From: Patescibacteria group bacterium
GTDB lineage: Bacteria; Patescibacteriota; Patescibacteriia; 2-12-FULL-57-11
Assembly: GCA_004299275.1 (NCBI GenBank)
Contig: SCSU01000073.1
Coordinates: forward strand, 1-42,660
Length of the DNA: 42,660 nt
Direction: 5' to 3'
Below are positions 2,907 to 41,434 of this stretch, piece by piece. Position numbers and translations under genes: made by a program. The stretch's first letter is position 1. Each line of letters starts with the position of its first letter. The notes beneath the pieces were generated by a model. It saw nothing but the letters and a program-made list of their open reading frames with translations, searched no databases and had not been told where the DNA came from.

Positions 2907-3915
2907 GAAGCAACAATCTCAAACACTCGTCGGGCTCCTCGCTATTTATTTCGGCCTCGCTGGTCTGGTTTTTGTCGGTACGCGCGTGGAAGAAGTCATT
3001 GAGCCGCCACGGCAACCGATTTGGGGAGCGACTTTTATGCCGAGCTACGCGGCGTTTATGGGGAACGACCCCCGCGCGGTGCTCGTAGCTCTGCTTGACG
3101 AACTCGGCGTCAAACATTTTCGGTTGACCATCCCCTGGGACCGGCTCGAGGCAAACCGTGGTCAGTTTACCTTTGCAGAAATCGAGTGGCAACTGGATGA
3201 AATCAAAAAACGCGGCGGCGACGCTATTCTCGCCATCGGCCGCCGCACGCCGCGCTGGCCGGAATGTCACGACCCGGCCTGGCTTAAGGCCATCTCGCCC
3301 GCCGAACAAGATGCCGCTACTCTTAATTTAATTAAAACCGAAGTCGAAAAACTCAAAGAGCGGCGCGAAATTATCGCCTGGCAGGTGGAAAATGAACCGT
3401 TGCTGCGCGTTTTCGGCCGTTGTGAGCGCCACAGCCGCAAACTTTGGCAGAGCGAAGTGGCGCTCGCGCGCCAGCTTGACGGTTCGCGGCCGGTCGTGAC
3501 CACGGAGTCCGGCGAACTCTCTACCTGGTTCGGCACGGCGCCGTCCGTGGACGCTCTCGGCATCTCTATTTATCACCAGACTTGGAATAATTGGCTGGGA
3601 AAAATTATTTATCCCCTCTCGCCGGCTTTTTACCGCCGGCGGACGGAGTTCACGAGAGCTCTCTTCAATAAACCGGTCTTCGTCTCCGAACTCCAAGCCG
3701 AACCCTGGGCCGGCGCGGCGCTCACGGAGCTCTCCATCGACGACCAGCTCCGGCTCGAGGACGCCCCCTCGCTCCGGCGCATGGCCGACTTTGCCGCGTC
3801 CACGCGCTTATCGCCCGTCTACTTTTGGGGCGCGGAGTGGTGGTACACGCTCCGCGAACAGGGGCAACCGGATGTCTGGGAAACCGCTAAGGAAATCTTT
3901 AAAAACCGCTCTTGA
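2905..3915 (+). CDS. Membrane-anchored or secreted glycoside hydrolase, TIM-barrel clan GH-A-like
   Basis: N-terminal hydrophobic segment; 'WQVENEPLL' (NEP acid/base-like) and 'VFVSELQAEPW' (nucleophile-like). Confidence 0.75.
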   Translation: MKQQSQTLVGLLAIYFGLAGLVFVGTRVEEVIEPPRQPIWGATFMPSYAAFMGNDPRAVLVALLDELGVKHFRLTIPWDRLEANRGQFTFAEIEWQLDEIKKRGGDAILAIGRRTPRWPECHDPAWLKAISPAEQDAATLNLIKTEVEKLKERREIIAWQVENEPLLRVFGRCERHSRKLWQSEVALARQLDGSRPVVTTESGELSTWFGTAPSVDALGISIYHQTWNNWLGKIIYPLSPAFYRRRTEFTRALFNKPVFVSELQAEPWAGAALTELSIDDQLRLEDAPSLRRMADFAASTRLSPVYFWGAEWWYTLREQGQPDVWETAKEIFKNRS

Positions 3916-3956
3916 CGAAAAAACACCAAACCGGTGAACTGACGCCGGAGGTCAAC

Positions 3957-4613
3957 GTGGAGAGAGTAAACCAAACCGCCGAGGAGGCTACGCTCACGAA
4001 CTGGCTCGCCGGCTATCTGCGGGCAAAAGGCAAACGCGGACGAACCGAGGAGCTGATGGCGCCGCTCTTCGCCCTCGTTCGTCCGTTCGCCGAGATCACG
4101 CGGACCGGCCGCTACCCGCTTGCCGAGTGGACGGCCCTAAACTCCCTCGAGGTTGCCGCGGCAATCGAGGCGGCAACCGGCGAGAGCGTGAAGGAACTCG
4201 TGCCGCTTTCGGTCGGCCGCGGCTGTACCACGGACTGGCGCGAGACCGTTTCGCTCCAAGCCCGGCTCGCTGACAGTGACTACCAGATGCGCGCCGGCAA
4301 CTGGACGCAGGAGGTCAGCTATCTCCGCGACCAGCTCACTATGCTCCTTTTCGAGGCCCTGCGACGCGCCATCGCTAAGACCGCCGGTCCGGCGCTCCGC
4401 GCCGCCATGAGCAAAGAGCGCTGGCACAAAGGTCCGGGACTGACCCTCACCCGCTCGGTCGAAAAGGTCGTGCTCCTCGAGGTCGGTTTTGCCAAAAATG
4501 GCGATCGCGAAGGTTTTGACCGCGTCGCCCCGCTCGCCAGAGTGCTCCCCCGCCTGCTCATCCTCGGCGCGGCCGTCGGCGAACCGCGCACCTGGCTCGT
4601 CGTCGTCGCCTAG
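3957..4613 (+). CDS. Uncharacterised protein with GTG start; strong SD and own terminator
   Basis: Open frame; GGAGG 5 nt upstream of GTG; hairpin plus T-run directly after the stop. The supplied ORF starts upstream at TTG 3912. Confidence 0.6.
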   Translation: MERVNQTAEEATLTNWLAGYLRAKGKRGRTEELMAPLFALVRPFAEITRTGRYPLAEWTALNSLEVAAAIEAATGESVKELVPLSVGRGCTTDWRETVSLQARLADSDYQMRAGNWTQEVSYLRDQLTMLLFEALRRAIAKTAGPALRAAMSKERWHKGPGLTLTRSVEKVVLLEVGFAKNGDREGFDRVAPLARVLPRLLILGAAVGEPRTWLVVVA

Positions 4614-4620
4614 AGTCATG

Positions 4621-4646
4621 CCGTGGCGGCCCGCCGCGGTTTTTTT
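4621..4646 (+). terminator. Rho-independent terminator
   Basis: ccgtggcgg/cgccgcgg stem followed by a 7-T run. Confidence 0.85.
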
Positions 4647-4651
4647 ATTGA

Positions 4652-5906: not shown

Positions 5907-6695
5907 CTATTTGCTGCTCACAATGATGATGACAACAAGTGCCGCTAAAACCAGCCGATACCAGACAAACGGCCGGTAACTGGCACGGGCAACATACCGC
6001 AAAAGAAAACGGATGGCCAAAAGTCCGGCAAGAGCCGCTACAACAATACCCACAAAAAAAGCCGGCGTAATGTCAGCTGAGTTCAATGAACGCAAGGCGT
6101 AAAACGCGGCGCCGGCGGTAATCGGCGTCGCCAAGAGGAACGAGAGCCGCGCCGCCGCCTCGCGGTTAAACCCGAGCGCGCGCGCCGCGGTGATGGTTGC
6201 GCCGGAGCGGGAGACGCCGGGGACAATCGCCGCGGCCTGAGCCAGACCGATAAAAATCGCGCTTGAAACCGAGAATCCGGTTGCCTCTTTCGCTCTCCGG
6301 CCCCAAAGGTCGGCGAGATAGAGCAACACACCGGCAACAGCCAGAGCAACGGCCACGAGCAGCGGCGAGCGAAAAAAACCTTCAGCCTGTTTTTCAAACA
6401 GCACGCCGGCTAACGCCCCCGGGAGCGAACCAAGCGCCAGGAGCCATAAAGTTTTTTGGGGTGACTTGCCCGCGCCGCCCAAGCCGGTCCGGAAAATATC
6501 CAGCCAGTCGCGGAAAAAATAAATCAAAAGCGCGAGCAGCGTGCCCAAGTGCAGGGCCACGTCAAAGGCGAGCCCGGGGTCGCGCCAGCCGAAAAACCAA
6601 GGCAGGAGCACTAAATGCGCCGAAGAGGAAACCGGCAAAAATTCCGTCAGCCCCTGGACCAGCCCGAGCGCCATCGCTTGAAAGATTGAAATCAT
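5907..6695 (-). CDS. uppP: Undecaprenyl-diphosphatase UppP (BacA family)
   Basis: 'GLVQGLTEFLPVSSSAHL', 'GVSRSGATITAARALGF'. Confidence 0.95.
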   Translation of the reverse strand: MISIFQAMALGLVQGLTEFLPVSSSAHLVLLPWFFGWRDPGLAFDVALHLGTLLALLIYFFRDWLDIFRTGLGGAGKSPQKTLWLLALGSLPGALAGVLFEKQAEGFFRSPLLVAVALAVAGVLLYLADLWGRRAKEATGFSVSSAIFIGLAQAAAIVPGVSRSGATITAARALGFNREAAARLSFLLATPITAGAAFYALRSLNSADITPAFFVGIVVAALAGLLAIRFLLRYVARASYRPFVWYRLVLAALVVIIIVSSK

Positions 6696-7222
6696 ATCAG
6701 CGAATAGATTTTTACCGCTTCCACTACGGCTAAGGAAACAACTCCGGCGAGCAGGGCGCCGGCCAAAACATCCGAGGGATAGTGGACGCCGGCCGAGATT
6801 CGCGCCAAGCCGACCAGGACCGCCATGGCCAAAAACAGCGGGCCAAGCGGATGCGCCAAGAGGAGGAAGGTCAGGGCCACCGTAAACCCGATCGTCGTGT
6901 GGTCCGAGGGAAAAGATTTCCAGCGCGGCGGCATCCAGACCAGCGGCTCGAATTTAAGATGGGTAAAAGGCCGTTCGCGGTAAAGTAAAAGCCCCAAAGT
7001 CCAGGAAATGATTTCGGCAATGATAACGGCCGCGACCGCGGTCAAAAAAATGCGGAGCGTCTGGGTAAAATGCGCCGGCCCGCCTTCGGTGAGCGAGGTC
7101 ACGGCAACAAGGAGCAGGAGATAAAAAAGCCAGGTGGCAAAAAATTTAATCAGCGCGTCAAGCGCCGGCGACTTGCCGACGGGTGACCTCATGACACGGA
7201 GAATTTTGAGATCCAGGTCCAT
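6692..7222 (-). CDS. PAP2-superfamily phosphatase
   Basis: 'FPSDHTT' and 'ARISAGVHYPSDVLAG' motifs. Confidence 0.9.
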   Translation of the reverse strand: MDLDLKILRVMRSPVGKSPALDALIKFFATWLFYLLLLVAVTSLTEGGPAHFTQTLRIFLTAVAAVIIAEIISWTLGLLLYRERPFTHLKFEPLVWMPPRWKSFPSDHTTIGFTVALTFLLLAHPLGPLFLAMAVLVGLARISAGVHYPSDVLAGALLAGVVSLAVVEAVKIYSLI

Positions 7223-19211: not shown

Positions 19212-19240
19212 TTGACGAACGGGGTGTCTTTAGTTATCAT
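19212..19240 (+). promoter_or_regulatory. Sigma70-like promoter TTGACG-N17-TATCAT
   Basis: -35 at 19212-19217, -10 at 19235-19240, upstream of CDS 19269. Confidence 0.6.
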
Positions 19241-19268
19241 ACCGTCTTTCCCAAAATGGAGGCACTAA

Positions 19269-20225
19269 ATGGCACGGGGAAAGAAGGAAACAAAAGAAAA
19301 AAAGGACTCGCCCTTTAAATTGGTTCTCATCCTCCTCGCGATCATCGGTCTCGCGATCTGGATGTATGTCGACGACAACGCGCGCCGACAGACGGAACCG
19401 CCCGCGACCTCTCGCCCGCCGGCAGCAGCGGCATCGGTCGAAGAGAGACCAAGGGAGTTCTTGGAAAAAAGTCTGTCCCGGCTCGAAAAAATAGAGCAAG
19501 ACGGCGCTCTGCTCGGCCGCGCTCTGGAGGCGGTCGCCGCGGGAGATCCGCGCGGCGATCTGCTGATTGCCTTCCATCGCGAGCATGCCTACTACTCGGT
19601 GCTCGTGGGCAATGGAGTCACCATTCAACACGCCGCAGGTAATCAGTCAAAATCCCTAAGGGATCCGTTGGCTTTCGAGGTGACGCTCGCGACCAAACGC
19701 GAACGAGCGCTGAACGGCCTGCCGGTCAACTCGGGATTCGAGTGGAACAGCCAAAGGAACCAGTTGTTCGCACTGCCGGTTCACGTGACGACGGTGGAGT
19801 GGGGCGGCATTCTCTTTGCCCACGAGCTCAGTCATGCCTATGACGTCGTGACCGGCGTTGAGCCGCGGCAAACCAAGCCGAGCGATCGCGCCTACCTTGA
19901 GGGTGAACTCCGCGCCTACGAGATGGAGTTTCGTCTAGCCGATCGTCTGGCCAAGGGCGCCTATCGGAAAACCATCTTGACGACGCTCGAACTAAGGGGA
20001 TATCTGAAAAAAGAACTCCCCAACTGGATCGAAACCCTGGACGATGACTTCAGGCGGATTGACGCTGTTTTCCCGTCGCCGGCGAAGGACAGGGACGAAC
20101 AATCGGCGAGGAACGCGATGGCCCAGATCGCCTTGAACTTCGTCCGCATCGAAAAGCAGAAGGGCGGGAGAGAAGACCGTCTCGCCTACATCTCCTACCT
20201 CTACGGCAAATACTTCGGCCGTTAG
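19269..20225 (+). CDS. Membrane-anchored putative zinc metallopeptidase (HExxH)
   Basis: N-terminal TM; 'ILFAHELSHAYD' then 'YLEGELRAYEMEF'; SD ggagg upstream. Confidence 0.6.
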   Translation: MARGKKETKEKKDSPFKLVLILLAIIGLAIWMYVDDNARRQTEPPATSRPPAAAASVEERPREFLEKSLSRLEKIEQDGALLGRALEAVAAGDPRGDLLIAFHREHAYYSVLVGNGVTIQHAAGNQSKSLRDPLAFEVTLATKRERALNGLPVNSGFEWNSQRNQLFALPVHVTTVEWGGILFAHELSHAYDVVTGVEPRQTKPSDRAYLEGELRAYEMEFRLADRLAKGAYRKTILTTLELRGYLKKELPNWIETLDDDFRRIDAVFPSPAKDRDEQSARNAMAQIALNFVRIEKQKGGREDRLAYISYLYGKYFGR

Positions 20226-20254
20226 ACGTCACGCATTCCGTGACGTTATTTTTT
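20226..20254 (+). terminator. Rho-independent terminator
   Basis: acgtcacg-cattc-cgtgacgt followed by tattttttc. Confidence 0.88.
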
Positions 20255-20318
20255 CAGAAAACCGCGGCTTGCGCCGCGGCTTCCCTCAAGCCATTTGCCC
20301 TTTGCTATCCGCCATTTG

Positions 20319-23761: not shown

Positions 23762-23791
23762 TTGACGCACACCGGGAAGCAAAGCTACAGT
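23762..23791 (+). promoter_or_regulatory. Divergent promoter TTGACG-N18-TACAGT
   Basis: -35 at 23762-23767, -10 at 23786-23791, upstream of CDS 23809. Confidence 0.5.
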
Positions 23792-23808
23792 GCGCGGCGA
23801 GGAGAAAA

Positions 23809-24105
23809 ATGGAACTGGTAATTATCGCGGTTTGCAACGTTCCGGACTGCCTCTGGGCGCGTTACCGGACAAACGGCGACGTTGTTGAGGGAGAAATCAA
23901 ACGCGACCGCGCCGCGGACAGCGCCGCGGCCGCCGGCGTCATTTGCCCGGCGCACCGGCCGCAAATCACGGCGCGCTGTGAGTGCCGGCGGCGGCTGATT
24001 GACGGGGTATGGGAAAAGGAGCCCCTACCGCCCTTGATTCCCATTTCGGCCACGCTCCCCTTCTTCGTCTGCCCCGAGTGCGCGCCGCCCACCACGACCC
24101 CCTAA
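23809..24105 (+). CDS. Small Cys-rich protein of unknown function (zinc-ribbon-like)
   Basis: SD gaggag before ATG; Cys motifs 'CNVPDC', 'CPAH', 'CEC', 'CPEC'; stop lies in the terminator loop. Confidence 0.6.
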   Translation: MELVIIAVCNVPDCLWARYRTNGDVVEGEIKRDRAADSAAAAGVICPAHRPQITARCECRRRLIDGVWEKEPLPPLIPISATLPFFVCPECAPPTTTP

Positions 24106-24119
24106 GGGTCGTTTTTTTA
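24094..24119 (+). terminator. Rho-independent terminator whose loop contains the stop codon
   Basis: acgaccc-cctaa-gggtcgt followed by a T-run. Confidence 0.88.
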
Positions 24120-26806: not shown

Positions 26807-27724
26807 ATGCTTATCCGCGAGGCGCTTTTCGCCGGAACAAAAAAACTTAGCCGGCATCGCGAGGAGTGGAGCTCCAACGCGCTCGACGCCGAGCTCCTCC
26901 TCGCCTTCGCCCTAAAAAAACCGCGCGAATTTCTCTACAGCCATAACGAAAGACCGCTGCCGCCAGCGGCAGCAAAGCGCTACCGCGCGTATCTGGCGCG
27001 GCGGCTCCGCCACGAGCCGGTCGCTTACATCCTTGGCGCGAAAGAATTTTTCGGCCTCAAAATCGAGGTAAAAAAACGCTGCACGCTCATCCCCCGGCCG
27101 GAAACCGAAATTCTCGTCGAAAAAGCGCTTGAGCTGCTAAAATCTCCAAATACCAAATTCCAAATACCAAATTCCAAATACCAAATTATTGATGTTGGCA
27201 CCGGTTCCGGCGCGATTGCCGTCGCTGTCGCCCAAAATATGCCGCAAGTCCGCGTGATTGCGACGGACAACTCCGCCTGCGCCTTAAGAGTCGCCCGCCA
27301 AAACGCCCGCCTGCATGGCGTCGCTTCTCTGGTCAAATTCACCAAGGCCGACATCCTGCAGCCAACCTTATCCCCTATACCCTATTCACTATCCACTATT
27401 CACTACCCCCTATCCCCTTCGCCGCTCATCCTCGCCAACCTCCCCTACGTCCCCACTCGCGAGTGGCAAAAACTCCCGCCGGAAATTCGCCGCTATGAGC
27501 CGCGGGCGGCGCTTGACGGCGGCCGCGACGGCCTCACGCTCTATCGCCGGCTCCTAGCCCAAATCAACCAGCGCAGCATCAAATCATTCACGCTCCTCGC
27601 CGAAATCCATCCCGAACAAAAAACCGCCTTCCGGCGGTTGATCAAAAAATATTGGCCCAAGGCGCAAATTGCTTTCCACCAAGACCTGGCTGGAAAAATC
27701 CGGGTGGTCGAGACTATGGTTTGA
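26807..27724 (+). CDS. prmC: Peptide chain release factor N5-glutamine methyltransferase
   Basis: 'DAELLLAFAL', 'LIPRPETEILVEKAL', 'DVGTGSGAIAVAVA', 'LILANLPYVP' (NPPY variant), directly after prfA. Confidence 0.93.
   Translation: MLIREALFAGTKKLSRHREEWSSNALDAELLLAFALKKPREFLYSHNERPLPPAAAKRYRAYLARRLRHEPVAYILGAKEFFGLKIEVKKRCTLIPRPETEILVEKALELLKSPNTKFQIPNSKYQIIDVGTGSGAIAVAVAQNMPQVRVIATDNSACALRVARQNARLHGVASLVKFTKADILQPTLSPIPYSLSTIHYPLSPSPLILANLPYVPTREWQKLPPEIRRYEPRAALDGGRDGLTLYRRLLAQINQRSIKSFTLLAEIHPEQKTAFRRLIKKYWPKAQIAFHQDLAGKIRVVETMV
27146..27187 (+). repeat. In-frame 6 x 7-nt array (CCAAATA CCAAATT)x3 inside prmC
   Basis: Exactly 42 nt; encodes PNTKFQIPNSKYQI immediately before DVGTGSG. Confidence 0.97.
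27375..27416 (+). repeat. In-frame heptamer array CTATACC CTATTCA CTATCCA CTATTCA CTACCCC CTATCCC inside prmC
   Basis: Six 7-nt units (42 nt) with degenerate flanking units; lies just before LILANLPYVP. Confidence 0.93.
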
Positions 27725-27731
27725 TAAAATA

Positions 27732-27770
27732 AAAGACTGGACCCCGACGTTACGTTGGGGTCCAGTCTTT
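27732..27770. terminator. Bidirectional hairpin terminator between prmC and the pilin gene
   Basis: 14-bp perfect arms aaagactggacccc/ggggtccagtcttt at a convergent junction. Confidence 0.8.
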
Positions 27771-27775
27771 ATTTC

Positions 27776-28213
27776 CTAAATCGGCCCGACCGTGTGGTTG
27801 CCCTTGGCGCCGACCTGGGAGTCAATCTCTAAAGTATAACGGAGCGAATAAGCCGTCCCGTCGGAGGAGTAGAAAAAACAGCAATTTGAGTCGCTGACAC
27901 AGCTCGCGAGCGGGTCCACCGGCACTTTGGCGATAGCGCTTTCCTGTTTTAACGCTTGAGAGACGCTGTCGGAGTTGGTCAGGCAGAGGTTGCTCGCCGC
28001 GGGATAAGAATTTTTAGTGGTGAAATACAGCGCCAAACTTTTCTGCATTGTCCGGATGTCGGTCACGCGCCGCGAATCACGAGCGCGCTGGCGGACGTAG
28101 TTCGTGCCCGTAATGGCGATAGTCGCGAGCAAACCGACGATAGCGACCACCACCAAAAGCTCAATTAAAGTGAACCCCCCTTTGCGTTTTTTAATTCTGA
28201 AGTTTCTCGCCAT
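27776..28213 (-). CDS. Type IV pilin-like/pseudopilin protein
   Basis: Prepilin motif 'KRKGGFTLIELLVVVAIVGLLATIA'; start overlaps the 3' end of the DUF3048 gene. Confidence 0.9.
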   Translation of the reverse strand: MARNFRIKKRKGGFTLIELLVVVAIVGLLATIAITGTNYVRQRARDSRRVTDIRTMQKSLALYFTTKNSYPAASNLCLTNSDSVSQALKQESAIAKVPVDPLASCVSDSNCCFFYSSDGTAYSLRYTLEIDSQVGAKGNHTVGPI

Positions 28214-32690: not shown

Positions 32691-33818
32691 TTACTTCACC
32701 ACTGCCCGCCAGACCTGAATCTTGCCGTCGCCGGTGCGCACACCGTAAGCAAAGGAACTGCCCACGCCGTATTCCGCCGGCGCGCCGTAAACTCGCGGCG
32801 CGTTAACCGAATCATTGGTCGCCGCCGTGTGAATCCGGATCGCCGATTCATACGCCGGGCTCGTCCCGCTCTCTGATGCAATCAATTTCTGAAAATATAG
32901 ACCGTCGCCTTTGACCATCAACTGTCCGCGCCGGCTAGAGTCGAGCCAAGAATAAGGCGGAGAACCGCTGCCGATTACCCGCCAGACATTTTCCGCATCG
33001 CCGCGGCCGTAAATGCCCGCTGTATTTTTGACGCCAATCTGGGAAGTGCTCTGCTCGCTTATAAGCCACTTGCCTGAAACACGGTTAAAACTGACTTCGT
33101 AAAGCGCGAGCGCGCTCATGTTAACGGCTTTCAGGTCCTGGAACCACGGCGCGAACTGGGCATAAGCGCGGCCGTCCACAGCGAGAATAAAATTAGCCGA
33201 ACTGCCGTAAACGCTGTTCGCGGTTTTCCAAATCGTGCCGTTGATGTAGGTCTCCCCTCTTTCAATTTTTAGCGTATGCAAACGGGGCGGACCGAGCACG
33301 CCGCCGGCAACATTAATCGCCGCGAAATCTTTGCCGTCGCTTTTATACCAGTGATAAATCGTCCGGCCGTCCGGCTTCCACAGCGGACCGTAGGTCTCTT
33401 CGCCATTCACCGAAGTGGCCATATCGCCGCCGGTCTGATGCAGCGGGTCCTCCCAGTGGTTGGTAATCACCGCCCGCTCCCCGACGCAAGTGCCGGTAAA
33501 ACGCACCAGCGAGCTCGGGGAGTCCTCGGCCATAACCTGCCAGTATTTGGTGAGCTTGGCGCCGTTGGCCTTTAAAGCGAAAAGTTTGGAAATTTTTTGC
33601 CCTTTGTAGCCATTCTCTTTCTGTACCTGCCAAACCAAATAAACGCGCTCGCCGCATTGGAACGCTTTAAAATCCTCTGGCTTGGGAACATTCGAGCTCC
33701 ACGGCGCCGGAATTTCCGCCACCAAATTTTTGGCAACGGGCAAATTGTCCGCGGCGATACCCGGAACCGGAAAAAAAGCGAAATTGACGGCAAAAACGGC
33801 TGAAAGTAATTTTTTCAT
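32691..33818 (-). CDS. Exported hypothetical protein
   Basis: Signal peptide 'MKKLLSAVFAVNFAFFPVPGIAAD'; soluble, aromatic/Gly-rich remainder. Confidence 0.75.
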   Translation of the reverse strand: MKKLLSAVFAVNFAFFPVPGIAADNLPVAKNLVAEIPAPWSSNVPKPEDFKAFQCGERVYLVWQVQKENGYKGQKISKLFALKANGAKLTKYWQVMAEDSPSSLVRFTGTCVGERAVITNHWEDPLHQTGGDMATSVNGEETYGPLWKPDGRTIYHWYKSDGKDFAAINVAGGVLGPPRLHTLKIERGETYINGTIWKTANSVYGSSANFILAVDGRAYAQFAPWFQDLKAVNMSALALYEVSFNRVSGKWLISEQSTSQIGVKNTAGIYGRGDAENVWRVIGSGSPPYSWLDSSRRGQLMVKGDGLYFQKLIASESGTSPAYESAIRIHTAATNDSVNAPRVYGAPAEYGVGSSFAYGVRTGDGKIQVWRAVVK

Positions 33819-33948: not shown

Positions 33949-33974
33949 TAAAAAAACCGGTTGGGTGCTCCAAC
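33949..33974 (-). terminator. Rho-independent terminator (minus strand)
   Basis: Minus: GTTGG-AGCAC-CCAAC-CGGTTTTTTT. Confidence 0.65.
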
Positions 33975-34001
33975 GCGGCGTAAACTCGCGGGTTATCGGT
34001 C

Positions 34002-34418: not shown

Positions 34419-34436
34419 GGCAGGCCTCCGCGCCGA

Positions 34437-34485: not shown

Positions 34486-36567
<2,082 letters not shown>

Positions 36568-37010: not shown

Positions 37011-37556
37011 ATGCCCAAACAAGTCGCCCAACACGGCCGCCGCTGGTACGCCATCCACACCTACTCCGGCTACGAGGAGAATGTTTCGAGCAACCTCCGC
37101 GCCAGGATTGACTCCATGGGCATGCAGGACAAAATTTTCAACATTCTGATTCCCAAAGAGAAAAAAATTAAAATCAAAAACGGCAAACGCAAGGTGGTGG
37201 AAGAAAAAATTTTTCCGGGCTACGTGCTGGTGGAGATGGTCGTCACCGACGACTCTTGGTACGTCGTCCGCAACACCCCGAACGTCACCGGCTTTATCGG
37301 CACGGGCACGAACCCCACGCCCGTCGCGGAGGAAGAAATCAAAACGCTCCAAAAACGCATGGGTGTGGAAGAGCCGCAATATAAAATTGACGTTGAGGTC
37401 GGCGATCCGGTGCGCATCAACGACGGGCCTTTTAAAGGTTTTGAGGGCAAGGTCTCCGACGTGGACGAGGAACGCGGCAAGATTAAAGTGCTGGTCAACA
37501 TGTTCGGCCGCGAAACGCCGGTGGAACTGGATTTCTTGCAAATTAAAAAGATGTAA
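37011..37556 (+). CDS. nusG: Transcription termination/antitermination protein NusG
   Basis: '[18 protein letters not shown]', 'FPGYVLVEM', '[18 protein letters not shown]'. Confidence 0.96.
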
Positions 37557-37617
37557 GGTAAAACGCTCGAACCTAGGGCTTTATGTCCGCACCCGCGGCG
37601 CGGGTTACACAATAAAT

Positions 37618-38049
37618 ATGGCCGCACCAAAGAAAAAAGTGAAAACTCAAATCAAGCTCCAGATCCCGGCGGGCAAAGCCAACCCCGCGCCGCCGGTCGG
37701 TCCGGCTTTGGGTCAGCACGGTTTGAACATCGCCGAGTTCTGCCAAAAGTTTAACGCCGCGACGTCCAAGCTCGGAGGTGACATCATTCCGGTGGTCATC
37801 ACGGTCTATGAAGACCGCAGCTATAATTTTATTCTCAAAACCCCGCCGGCCGCGGAGCTGTTAAAGAAGGCCGCGGGTATTGAAAAAGGTTCCGGCAAAC
37901 CATTGGCCGAGAAAATCGGCAAAGTCACGCGAGCGCAAATTCTGGAGATTGCGCAAAAGAAACTGCCGGACTTAAACACCACCGACATCGAGGCCGCCAA
38001 ACGCACCATCGAGGGCACGGCGCGGCAGATGGGTTTAGAAGTGGTCTAA
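37618..38049 (+). CDS. rplK: 50S ribosomal protein L11
   Basis: '[34 protein letters not shown]'. Confidence 0.97.
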
Positions 38050-38053
38050 CCTT

Positions 38054-38737
38054 ATGCCTCACTCCCAACGTTTTCAGGAACTCAAAAAACTGATTGACCC
38101 GAAAAAGGCTTATCCCCTCGCCGAGGCGGTCGAGCTCGTAAAAAAAACCTCTGCCGCAAAATTTGACGCGACGGTGGAACTGCACTGCAAACTGGGCATC
38201 AACCCGACCAAGGGCGAAGAGCAGGTCCGCGGCACGGTCTCCCTCCCCCACGGCACGGGTAAAACAAAAAAAGTGGCGGCCTTCGTCGGCGGCGAAAAGG
38301 TTAAAGACGCCAGAGAGGCCGGCGCCGATTTAGTCGGCGGCGAGGACCTGATCGCCGAAATCGCCAAAACGGAAAAAATTGACTTTGACGTCGCCGTGGC
38401 CGCGCCGGAGATGATGCCCAAACTGGCCAAGCTGGCCAAGATTCTCGGCCCCCGGGGCCTCATGCCCAATCCCAAAACCGAAACCGTCGGTCCCAACGTG
38501 AAAAAAATGGTGGAGGAGTTAAAGAAAGGTAAAATCGCTTTTAAAAACGACGCCACCGGCAATCTTCACCTCGCCATCGGCAAAGTTTCTTTTGCGGCGG
38601 AAAAACTCGCCGCGAACGCCGCCGCGGCGCTCGAGGCAATCAAAAAAGCCAAACCCGCTTCCTCCAAGGGCGACTATTTTCAAAACATCACCCTGACCTC
38701 TTCCATGGGCCCGGGCGTCAAAGCGCAGGCGGCGTAA
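38054..38737 (+). CDS. rplA: 50S ribosomal protein L1
   Basis: 'LPHGTGKTKKVAAF', 'LGPRGLMPNPKTETV'. Confidence 0.96.
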   Translation: MPHSQRFQELKKLIDPKKAYPLAEAVELVKKTSAAKFDATVELHCKLGINPTKGEEQVRGTVSLPHGTGKTKKVAAFVGGEKVKDAREAGADLVGGEDLIAEIAKTEKIDFDVAVAAPEMMPKLAKLAKILGPRGLMPNPKTETVGPNVKKMVEELKKGKIAFKNDATGNLHLAIGKVSFAAEKLAANAAAALEAIKKAKPASSKGDYFQNITLTSSMGPGVKAQAA

Positions 38738-40087: not shown

Positions 40088-40093
40088 AAAATA

Positions 40094-40121
40094 AAAAACG
40101 CGATCCTCACGCGGGATCGCT
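40094..40121 (-). terminator. Rho-independent terminator (minus strand)
   Basis: Minus GCGATCC-CGCGTGA-GGATCGC-GTTTTTT. Confidence 0.88.
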
Positions 40122-40562
40122 TTCCTGTCTCCAGTCGCTCGTCTCGGCCGCGGCCAGCCGGGGACGCGGCTCCCCGCTGAAGTCGCGGTACTCGCCGAGG
40201 AACCTCTTCAGGTGTTCGAGCGCCTTGCCCGGCGTCTCCCATTCGCGGAACTCGACGACCTGCGGGAGTTTGCGGATGGCTCGGGCGCAGGGATGACCCT
40301 GCGGCCAGAGCAGCACGATGGGGATGCTAAGCCCGTTCGCGAGGTGGTGTTCATCGAGCATCGGCGCCGGGCAAACTACGGCGTAGACGACGAGCAGCTT
40401 GGCGTTCCGGACGACCATCAGGTCCGGCGTCCGTCGCGTCTGAATCACGCGATGTCGGTGCTGCTGGATTGTCACTCGAGCGATTTCGGCGAAACGCTCA
40501 GCGCTCCTCCGGGCCCCGGGAGCTAGCAAGTCCAGGGGGACCGACAAACAGATGTAGGACAC
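40107..40562 (-). CDS. Hypothetical protein, GTG start
   Basis: AAGGAGGAGAAC-GTG; the upstream ATG at 40616 falls inside the promoter -35 box. Confidence 0.6.
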   Translation of the reverse strand: MSYICLSVPLDLLAPGARRSAERFAEIARVTIQQHRHRVIQTRRTPDLMVVRNAKLLVVYAVVCPAPMLDEHHLANGLSIPIVLLWPQGHPCARAIRKLPQVVEFREWETPGKALEHLKRFLGEYRDFSGEPRPRLAAAETSDWRQESDPA

Positions 40563-40587
40563 GTTCTCCTCCTTACTCCGACTGATA

Positions 40588-40616
40588 AACATAAACGAAT
40601 AGTTTATTTGAGTCAA
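40588..40616 (-). promoter_or_regulatory. Promoter-like TTGACT-N17-TATGTT
   Basis: Minus strand -35 at 40616-40611, -10 at 40593-40588. Confidence 0.6.
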
Positions 40617-40687
40617 GAGGGCGGTGTTTCTTGTGCCCCGCGCTCTCTTGTGTGAGAATAGGGCGGACGCGATAGAAAGGAGGAACT

Positions 40688-41386
40688 ATGTTCGTGATAA
40701 TTGACGGCATTGACGGGAGCGGCAAAGGCGTAATCGTGGAGTGTCTCGCCGCCGCGCTGCGGGAGCAAGGGCGAGATGTCTTTGACGCCCGCGCGGCAAT
40801 GCGGAGGGAGGGCCGCGTGCCCGGCGCCGAGGACATCGGCGGCGCCGACGCGGTCGTGACCACCGAGCCGGCCTATGCCTGGGCCGGGCTCGCGCTCCGC
40901 GAGGAGCTCCTGCGCAATCCGGCCTACGACCCGCTCACGGTCGCCCAGGCCTTTGCCGTGGACCGCGAAATCCACTATCGACGGGTCATCCTGCCCAGCA
41001 GCGCCGCCGACAAGCTCATCATTTCCGAACGCGGCATCTCCGGCTCGCTTGCCTACCAAGTCGTTGCCGGCATCCCTGAGGAAAAAATTCTCGCGCTCCC
41101 CGGCAACCGCCTGGCGCTCGAGAACCCGCCGGACCTGCTCGTCCTCGCGCAGCTTGACGCGGAAACAGCGCTCAAGCGCCTCGCGGCTCGCGCGGGCAAA
41201 GATGACGGCTCCTACTACGAACGCCGGCCGTTCCTCGAAGAGCTGGCCGTCCGCTACCGCGACCCGGCTTTCCGAGAAATCTTCCAAAGCCGTGGCACGC
41301 GCGTCATCGAAATCTCAACCGAAGGAACACTGGCAGACACCGAAGCGCGCGCCCGCACTCTGCTCCTGCCGCTCCTCGCCCAATGA
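40688..41386 (+). CDS. tmk: Thymidylate kinase
   Basis: 'MFVIIDGIDGSGKGVIVECLAAAL', 'TTEPAY', 'DREIHYRRVILP', 'SERGISGSLAYQ'. Confidence 0.85.
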   Translation: MFVIIDGIDGSGKGVIVECLAAALREQGRDVFDARAAMRREGRVPGAEDIGGADAVVTTEPAYAWAGLALREELLRNPAYDPLTVAQAFAVDREIHYRRVILPSSAADKLIISERGISGSLAYQVVAGIPEEKILALPGNRLALENPPDLLVLAQLDAETALKRLAARAGKDDGSYYERRPFLEELAVRYRDPAFREIFQSRGTRVIEISTEGTLADTEARARTLLLPLLAQ

Positions 41387-41407: not shown

Positions 41408-41434
41408 TCTCGGACTTGCGCCGAGACTTTTTTA
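41408..41434 (+). terminator. Rho-independent terminator after tmk
   Basis: tctcgg-acttgcg-ccgaga followed by cttttttatt. Confidence 0.8.

Follow-up and report, generated by a model that had tools for sequence, protein, structure and literature searches.

Two gene dialects in a Patescibacteria genome: a codon-atypical, SD-led minority among genes that start behind T at –1

SD-independent initiation has been described in Bacteroidota, where genes of Flavobacterium (PMC6847099) and Prevotella (PMC3155529) carry a positive signal, A at –3 together with other positions. In non-SD genes of Bacteroidetes, Cyanobacteria and others, C has been reported directly upstream of the start codon (PMC5397173). 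Patescibacteria were not found by name in this cited literature on start signals. The genome studied here resembles Bacteroidota in that SD is missing from most genes despite an intact anti-SD, and in the AT-rich region upstream of genes. It differs in its dominant T at –1 (hereafter T(–1)) and in having no preference for A at –3 (A 0.31, T 0.33 in the non-SD class of our start model, where T takes 0.80 and C 0.14 of the weight at –1), while pooled Bacteroidota loci, as counted here, also show some T(–1) excess. With the C signal it shares the position, immediately 5' of the start codon in non-SD genes, but T occupies this position in about 80% of the non-SD model; C makes up about 40% in non-SD genes of a sister genome.

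The remaining genes recall two other known categories. Like codon-atypical horizontally acquired genes they have deviating codons and few homologues and are short and accessory, but they are mostly scattered singles rather than islands, and their codon shift is coupled to another start signal and to a promoter and terminator of their own. Phage morons are single genes with their own promoter and terminator, and the likeness to them lies in single units of transcription, complete in themselves and flanked by unrelated genes; unlike morons, the units described here are chromosomal, lie outside prophage as far as seen and have no viral relatives that we could find. No published report of this combination of features was found in our searches of open-access papers.

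The window, a stretch of 42,660 nt, is contig C18 of the source genome (G000; 1,000,965 bases, 73 contigs), of which 928,713 bases (∼93% of 1.0 Mb) were analysed. The nearest gyrB among named genomes is that of Candidatus Uhrbacteria, with 71% identity to gyrB of the window, and on this basis we assign the genome to Patescibacteria. Genes were called by our own codon-score finder and starts were placed by an EM model with an SD class and a non-SD class, both approximations; since the EM model can reinforce motifs it has learned, T(–1) was also checked on starts without any alternative. The sister genome (G003, two contigs) belongs to the same family and a different genus, and 651 kb of it were used for the homologue search.

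Codon classes and the features that accompany them

An initial annotation, made from the sequence of the window, had proposed two gene dialects as its most system-like pattern, and this proposal holds well beyond the window: SD, codon class, promoter box, terminator, cysteine content and scarcity of relatives coincide across the genome and again in a second genus. A two-component mixture on synonymous codons only, blind to start signals, places 11.7% of genes in the source genome and 13.4% in the sister genome in a minor class. BIC still improves with more components (the minor one stays at ∼11% with three or four), so that 'two' classes is a simplification. The codon comparison that the annotation had suggested gives a sharp contrast in the source genome: core SD is found in 61.5% of the 78 confident minor-class members versus 2.9% elsewhere (odds ratio 54, p=1e–38). 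T(–1) marks 13% of these members and 76% of the majority (as TATG, versus 15% at all ATGs), an own terminator follows 41% versus 11%, Cys content is about five times higher (1.6% versus 0.31%), and 15% versus 50% have a match in the sister genus. The sister genome shows the same split, with SD in 44% of its minor class versus 2.8% (p=1.5e–16). In the source genome minor-class genes stand mostly as singles, on 36 of 62 contigs. Members that do have homologues include kinase, NUDIX, isochorismatase, PRPP synthetase and MopE-like genes. Two contigs are mostly minor-class, L041 (C40, 10 kb; 7/11 genes) and L057 (C56; 5/5), and could be an element or bin contamination.

Sorting the genes by start signal leads to the same picture. 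Of 711 starts, 75 (10.5%) have a core SD, compared with 1.9% of internal in-frame starts and with counts of 10–18 in shifted windows. Genome-wide scoring, also suggested by the annotation, links SD to an own terminator (43% of SD genes versus 13% of others, p=1e–7). The link is not significant in the few data from other Patescibacteria, short stretches of which were pooled (6/35 versus 31/326, p=0.15). TTGAC lies 40–80 nt upstream of 47% of SD genes versus 7% of others and is about as frequent in the sister genome; TTGACA within 80 nt precedes 19 of 61 SD genes, with 1.2 expected from non-SD genes. No operator shared by SD genes was found upstream of them in the source genome, where only TTGACA-type –35 k-mers stand out. 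SD genes are shorter than other genes of the genome and more often divergent from the upstream neighbour; they seldom have a homologue in the 651 kb of the sister genome, hold 33 Pfam families in 61 genes versus 153 in 61 length-matched controls, and are richer in cysteine than T(–1) genes in both genomes (p=1e–10 in the source, p=5e–4 in the sister). A PADLOC scan for defence genes returned scattered matches, each to a single member, with no concentration.

SD genes of the source genome favour TTC, AAG, ATC and TAC, which T(–1) genes do not (Phe TTC 0.74 versus 0.35). High expression was rejected as the cause of this shift, as TTC is 0.34 in EF-Tu, EF-G, RpoC, GroEL and r-proteins. Nor does absence of relatives alone explain the shift: T(–1) genes share one codon table whether or not they have homologues (rms 0.009, compared with 0.086 for SD genes).

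Start signal of the majority genes

T(–1) is evident on starts that leave no choice: 63% of 87 unambiguous ATG starts of the source genome carry it, compared with 15% of all ATGs and 12% of internal in-frame ATGs, and T or C precedes 82% of 106 unambiguous starts. Ortholog-supported starts (reciprocal best hits between the two genomes with aligned N-termini) have T(–1) in 94 of 113 cases in the source genome, and in 92 of the 113 pairs T there is matched by T or C in the sister. Strong SD and T(–1) are almost mutually exclusive in the source genome; T(–1) occurs at 14/75 SD starts versus 473/636 others (p=4e–21, partly circular as these are EM starts) and at 1 of the 7 strongest SDs of the unambiguous set. 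By simple counts at first ATGs, other Patescibacteria loci, and most of ten genomes from the class, are enriched in T(–1) and have SD no more often than background. In other phyla T(–1) is weaker (pooled Bacteroidota), or SD is seen instead (Bacillota, Chloroflexota).

In the window, gyrB, secE, nusG, rplK, rplA, prfA, rpmE, manC and gapA all lack SD, as the annotation had said of them, but they are not devoid of signal: each has T(–1), which it had missed. This count takes the starts of gapA (21368) and rpmE (25299) as right. In both genomes the initiator tRNA (loci L243/L244; source genome C62:4308-4384) has C33 instead of the usual U33, and A29-U41 replaces one of three G-C pairs. A pattern search finds C33 in 6 of 8 matched class genomes, one of them the source genome; in the rest of the phylum C33 is rare. 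Loci L243/L244 also contain Lgt and LspA.

The six SD-led genes of the window

Six genes of the window had been singled out for a clear SD and a dedicated terminator. All six ORFs are present, each preceded at 4–6 nt by GGAGG or GAGGAG and closed by a hairpin with T-run that follows the stop or overlaps it (Table 1). Promoter-like boxes had been claimed for four; we see a TTGAC(A/G/T) box and a –10-like hexamer at 17–18 nt upstream of all five uncharacterised genes, weakest in 3957 (TGAACT), while such a pair is not clearly present upstream of 40688. The five are indeed without a Pfam match at E<1, and 40688 is a thymidylate kinase. Codon log-odds place four of the six in the minor class.

Table 1. 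Positions of the SD-led genes, their signals and majority-dialect genes in the window (codon scores in nats)
Feature	Position	Strand	Remarks
3957 gene, uncharacterised, 218 aa, GTG start	3957..4613	+	minor codon class, +11.6
3957 promoter-like TTGACG-N17-TGAACT	3912..3940	+	read from sequence; –35 overlaps stop of upstream gene
3957 SD GGAGG, spacing 5	3947..3951	+	
3957 terminator hairpin, T7	4620..4647	+	
19269 gene, membrane-anchored protein with HELSH (HExxH), 318 aa	19269..20225	+	codons ambiguous, –2.7
19269 promoter-like TTGACG-N17-TATCAT	19212..19240	+	
19269 SD GGAGG, spacing 6	19258..19262	+	
19269 terminator hairpin, T-run	20225..20255	+	
23809 ORF, short, cysteine-rich, uncharacterised, 98 aa, 7 Cys	23809..24105	+	codons ambiguous, –1.6
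23809 promoter-like TTGACG-N18-TACAGT	23762..23791	+	read from sequence
23809 SD GAGGAG, spacing 4	23799..23804	+	
23809 terminator	24094..24119	+	overlaps stop codon
34002 gene, uncharacterised, 138 aa	34002..34418	–	minor codon class, +16.5
34002 promoter-like TTGACA-N17-TAAAAA	34437..34465	–	
34002 SD GGAGG, spacing 6	34425..34429	–	
34002 terminator-like hairpin, CGG, T7	33950..33978	–	stem shown by RNAfold
40107 gene, uncharacterised, 151 aa, GTG start	40107..40562	–	minor codon class, +15.3
40107 promoter-like TTGACT-N17-TATGTT	40588..40616	–	read from sequence; its ATG mimics a start codon
40107 SD GGAGG, spacing 5	40568..40572	–	
40107 terminator	40093..40120	–	overlaps stop codon
40688 thymidylate kinase (tmk)	40688..41386	+	Pfam 1.4e–19; both SD and T(–1); minor codons, +6.6
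40688 SD GGAGG, spacing 4	40679..40683	+	
40688 terminator hairpin, T6	41408..41433	+	
gyrB	34540..36567	+	majority dialect: no SD, T(–1), majority codons, –50
nusG, rplK, rplA run	37011..38737	+	operon-like cluster, T(–1) at each start, majority dialect

As a non-core, atypical set the six hold together only in part. The description fits 3957, whose product has no relatives in 18 other genomes, 34002, whose product was not found in 190 other genomes of the class, and 40107, whose product has one weak match in 191. It does not fit 40688, a gene conserved in the family; codons leave 19269 and 23809 undecided. Among 95 class genomes, 24 encode a thymidylate kinase, G002 and the sister genome among them; the relatives whose starts could be read lack a core SD, and several have T(–1). 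We therefore see 40688 best as a resident gene that additionally carries an SD. The weakest case is 23809, which our gene finder did not call. The product of 19269 has its membrane helix at the N-terminus, and its sole relative among 116 genomes of the phylum, in G089, keeps HExxH as HELRH, is 34% identical and starts behind TGGAGG. By eye, the protein pattern of 40107 suggests a nucleoside deoxyribosyltransferase-like fold, to which Pfam and the predicted structure lend no support; confidence of the predicted structures of the 19269 and 40107 products is too low for use.

Programs erred at several of these genes. The EM model initially misplaced the starts of 3957 (to TTG at 3912, which is the –35 box) and of 40107 (to ATG at 40592, inside the –10 box), and the terminator scanner missed the 34002 hairpin because CGG separates the stem from the T-run. 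Two more window genes have SD-like leaders, 32691-33818 and 6692-7222; their codons are clearly of the majority (–65 and –35 nats), and these leaders look like chance SDs or exceptions. Two convergent genes at 26807-28213 share a long, perfect-looking terminator hairpin (GACTGGACCCC...GGGGTCCAGTC). No tRNA gene or integrase was seen in the window; there were no viral-contig relatives for four of its genes, and one phage search and one plasmid search for relatives of window genes found none.

Origin of the minority genes

We propose that the majority (∼88% by codons) initiates without SD and is marked by the base immediately 5' of its start codons, usually T and sometimes C. This base would exert its effect at the ribosome, where U(–1) might pair with A37 of the initiator tRNA. 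The 16S tail of the source genome, GGATCACCTCCTTTC, is intact and keeps CCTCC, so the same ribosomes can read both dialects. The minority would be accessory genes, mostly alone and without relatives, each expressed from a –35/–10 promoter through a leader of ∼20–40 nt, a strong SD and its own terminator, and having its own codon usage and amino-acid composition as well. These genes in conventional SD dialect within an SD-independent genome were probably acquired laterally, most likely repeatedly over time and from GC-richer, SD-using sources. A gene arriving with all its signals would be expressible wherever it lands, and we infer that selection may have favoured such self-contained units. Lateral acquisition fits codons that are atypical for reasons other than expression, the few homologues, the scattered single complete units and the non-resident start signal. 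The initial annotation had considered recently acquired cargo or a separately regulated regulon; acquisition is the better supported half, in view of few homologues and atypical codons not shared by highly expressed majority genes, while 'recently' meets a difficulty. Of the 12 minor-class genes with a reciprocal best hit in the sister genome, 8 are minor there too (p=3e–8) at 30–55% identity, which speaks against a purely recent origin and points to long residence.

Long residence is what one would expect if the minority were a native compartment of genes that stand alone and are regulated one by one (with roles at the surface, in stress or in host contact), for which SD and sigma70-type promoters are the mode of expression and whose codons reflect a different history of selection or mutation. 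Besides the shared pairs, this explanation draws on members such as a response regulator, a Ser/Thr kinase and lipoprotein-like proteins, and on the homologue of 19269, which in another family also lies behind a strong SD. Most of 191 class genomes contain TTGAC-N36-62-GGAGG-N4-9-ATG more often than its reversed form, the control, but in very different numbers, from about background to 150 copies (23 versus 2 in the source genome, 150 versus 4 in G282); G017 and G224 are likewise rich in this cassette, and family f16 is poor in it. Such a distribution would suit a native mode too. In addition, no donor came to light in the collections searched, the shift of the minor class in the same direction in both genomes could also be an effect of composition, and two of the six window genes are not codon-atypical. 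However, the minor codon usage is absent from highly expressed majority genes, the sister genus lacks homologues of most members and the search for a common operator failed in the source genome. Given the shared pairs and the class-wide cassette, we regard transfer as probable rather than certain, and a native accessory mode as possible but unlikely. An artefact of spurious or antisense ORFs, contaminating contigs or biased start prediction might be suspected from the missing homologues, the odd composition, an assembly in 73 contigs and an EM model that favours learned motifs. But GC3>GC1>GC2 holds in 99% of minor genes, which indicates that their reading frames are real and rejects shadow ORFs; promoter, SD and terminator sit in the right places, and the codon classes were found without start data. 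Contamination is unlikely because minor genes interleave with core genes on the same contigs and the split recurs in the sister genome, which has only two contigs. This explanation is largely refuted already and appears extremely improbable. Scarcely more probable is that leaderless transcription accounts for T(–1), through a pyrimidine at –1 relative to the start of transcription, the dialects then being leaderless and leadered mRNAs. A small excess of TATAAT-like boxes 9–11 nt before T(–1) starts of first genes (17 versus about 7) is in its favour, but T(–1) persists inside operons, where –10 boxes are rare, at 75% for gaps of ≤5 nt and 89% for 6–20 nt (T(–1) in divergent genes, 56%), and we reject leaderless transcription as the main cause.

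Two observations concern leaders in other genomes. In G089 (C3:64472-75512, L221-L229) one leader repeat recurs before every one of nine consecutive genes, the 19269 homologue among them. It runs from CCTCCTCTCCGCC through a variable hairpin to GGCCGAAG[AC]TGGAGG, next to which the start codon follows; its first part could pair with the SD. Leaders of the TTGAC-SD cassette in G286, G147 and G183 have a boxA-like GTACATT/GCACATT/GTTCTTT between –10 and SD (13 of 17 in G286, 0.6 expected, for a motif picked by eye from the same sequences); it is not enriched in the source or sister genome. Among minor-class proteins, some lipoprotein-like ones rich in Asp-Ala-Gly seem to us reminiscent of Myxococcota.

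Going further, the whole class may keep a second, textbook dialect (sigma70-type promoter, leader, SD, terminator) for persistent lineage-private, cysteine-rich, often surface-type genes, with core genes on U(–1)AUG, and initiation in the two compartments would then be separately controllable; we put this forward as speculation with rather poor odds. As to practice, our results suggest that SD-tuned gene finders misplace many starts in the Patescibacteria phylum. Most genes of Patescibacteria are beyond the reach of homology, and start signal together with codon class would offer a simple means of telling their resident genes from accessory ones. This would also reveal how SD-type genes are taken up and read by a cell that does not depend on SD. 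The T(–1) signal, finally, makes a claim about initiation that can be tested, in organisms difficult to cultivate.
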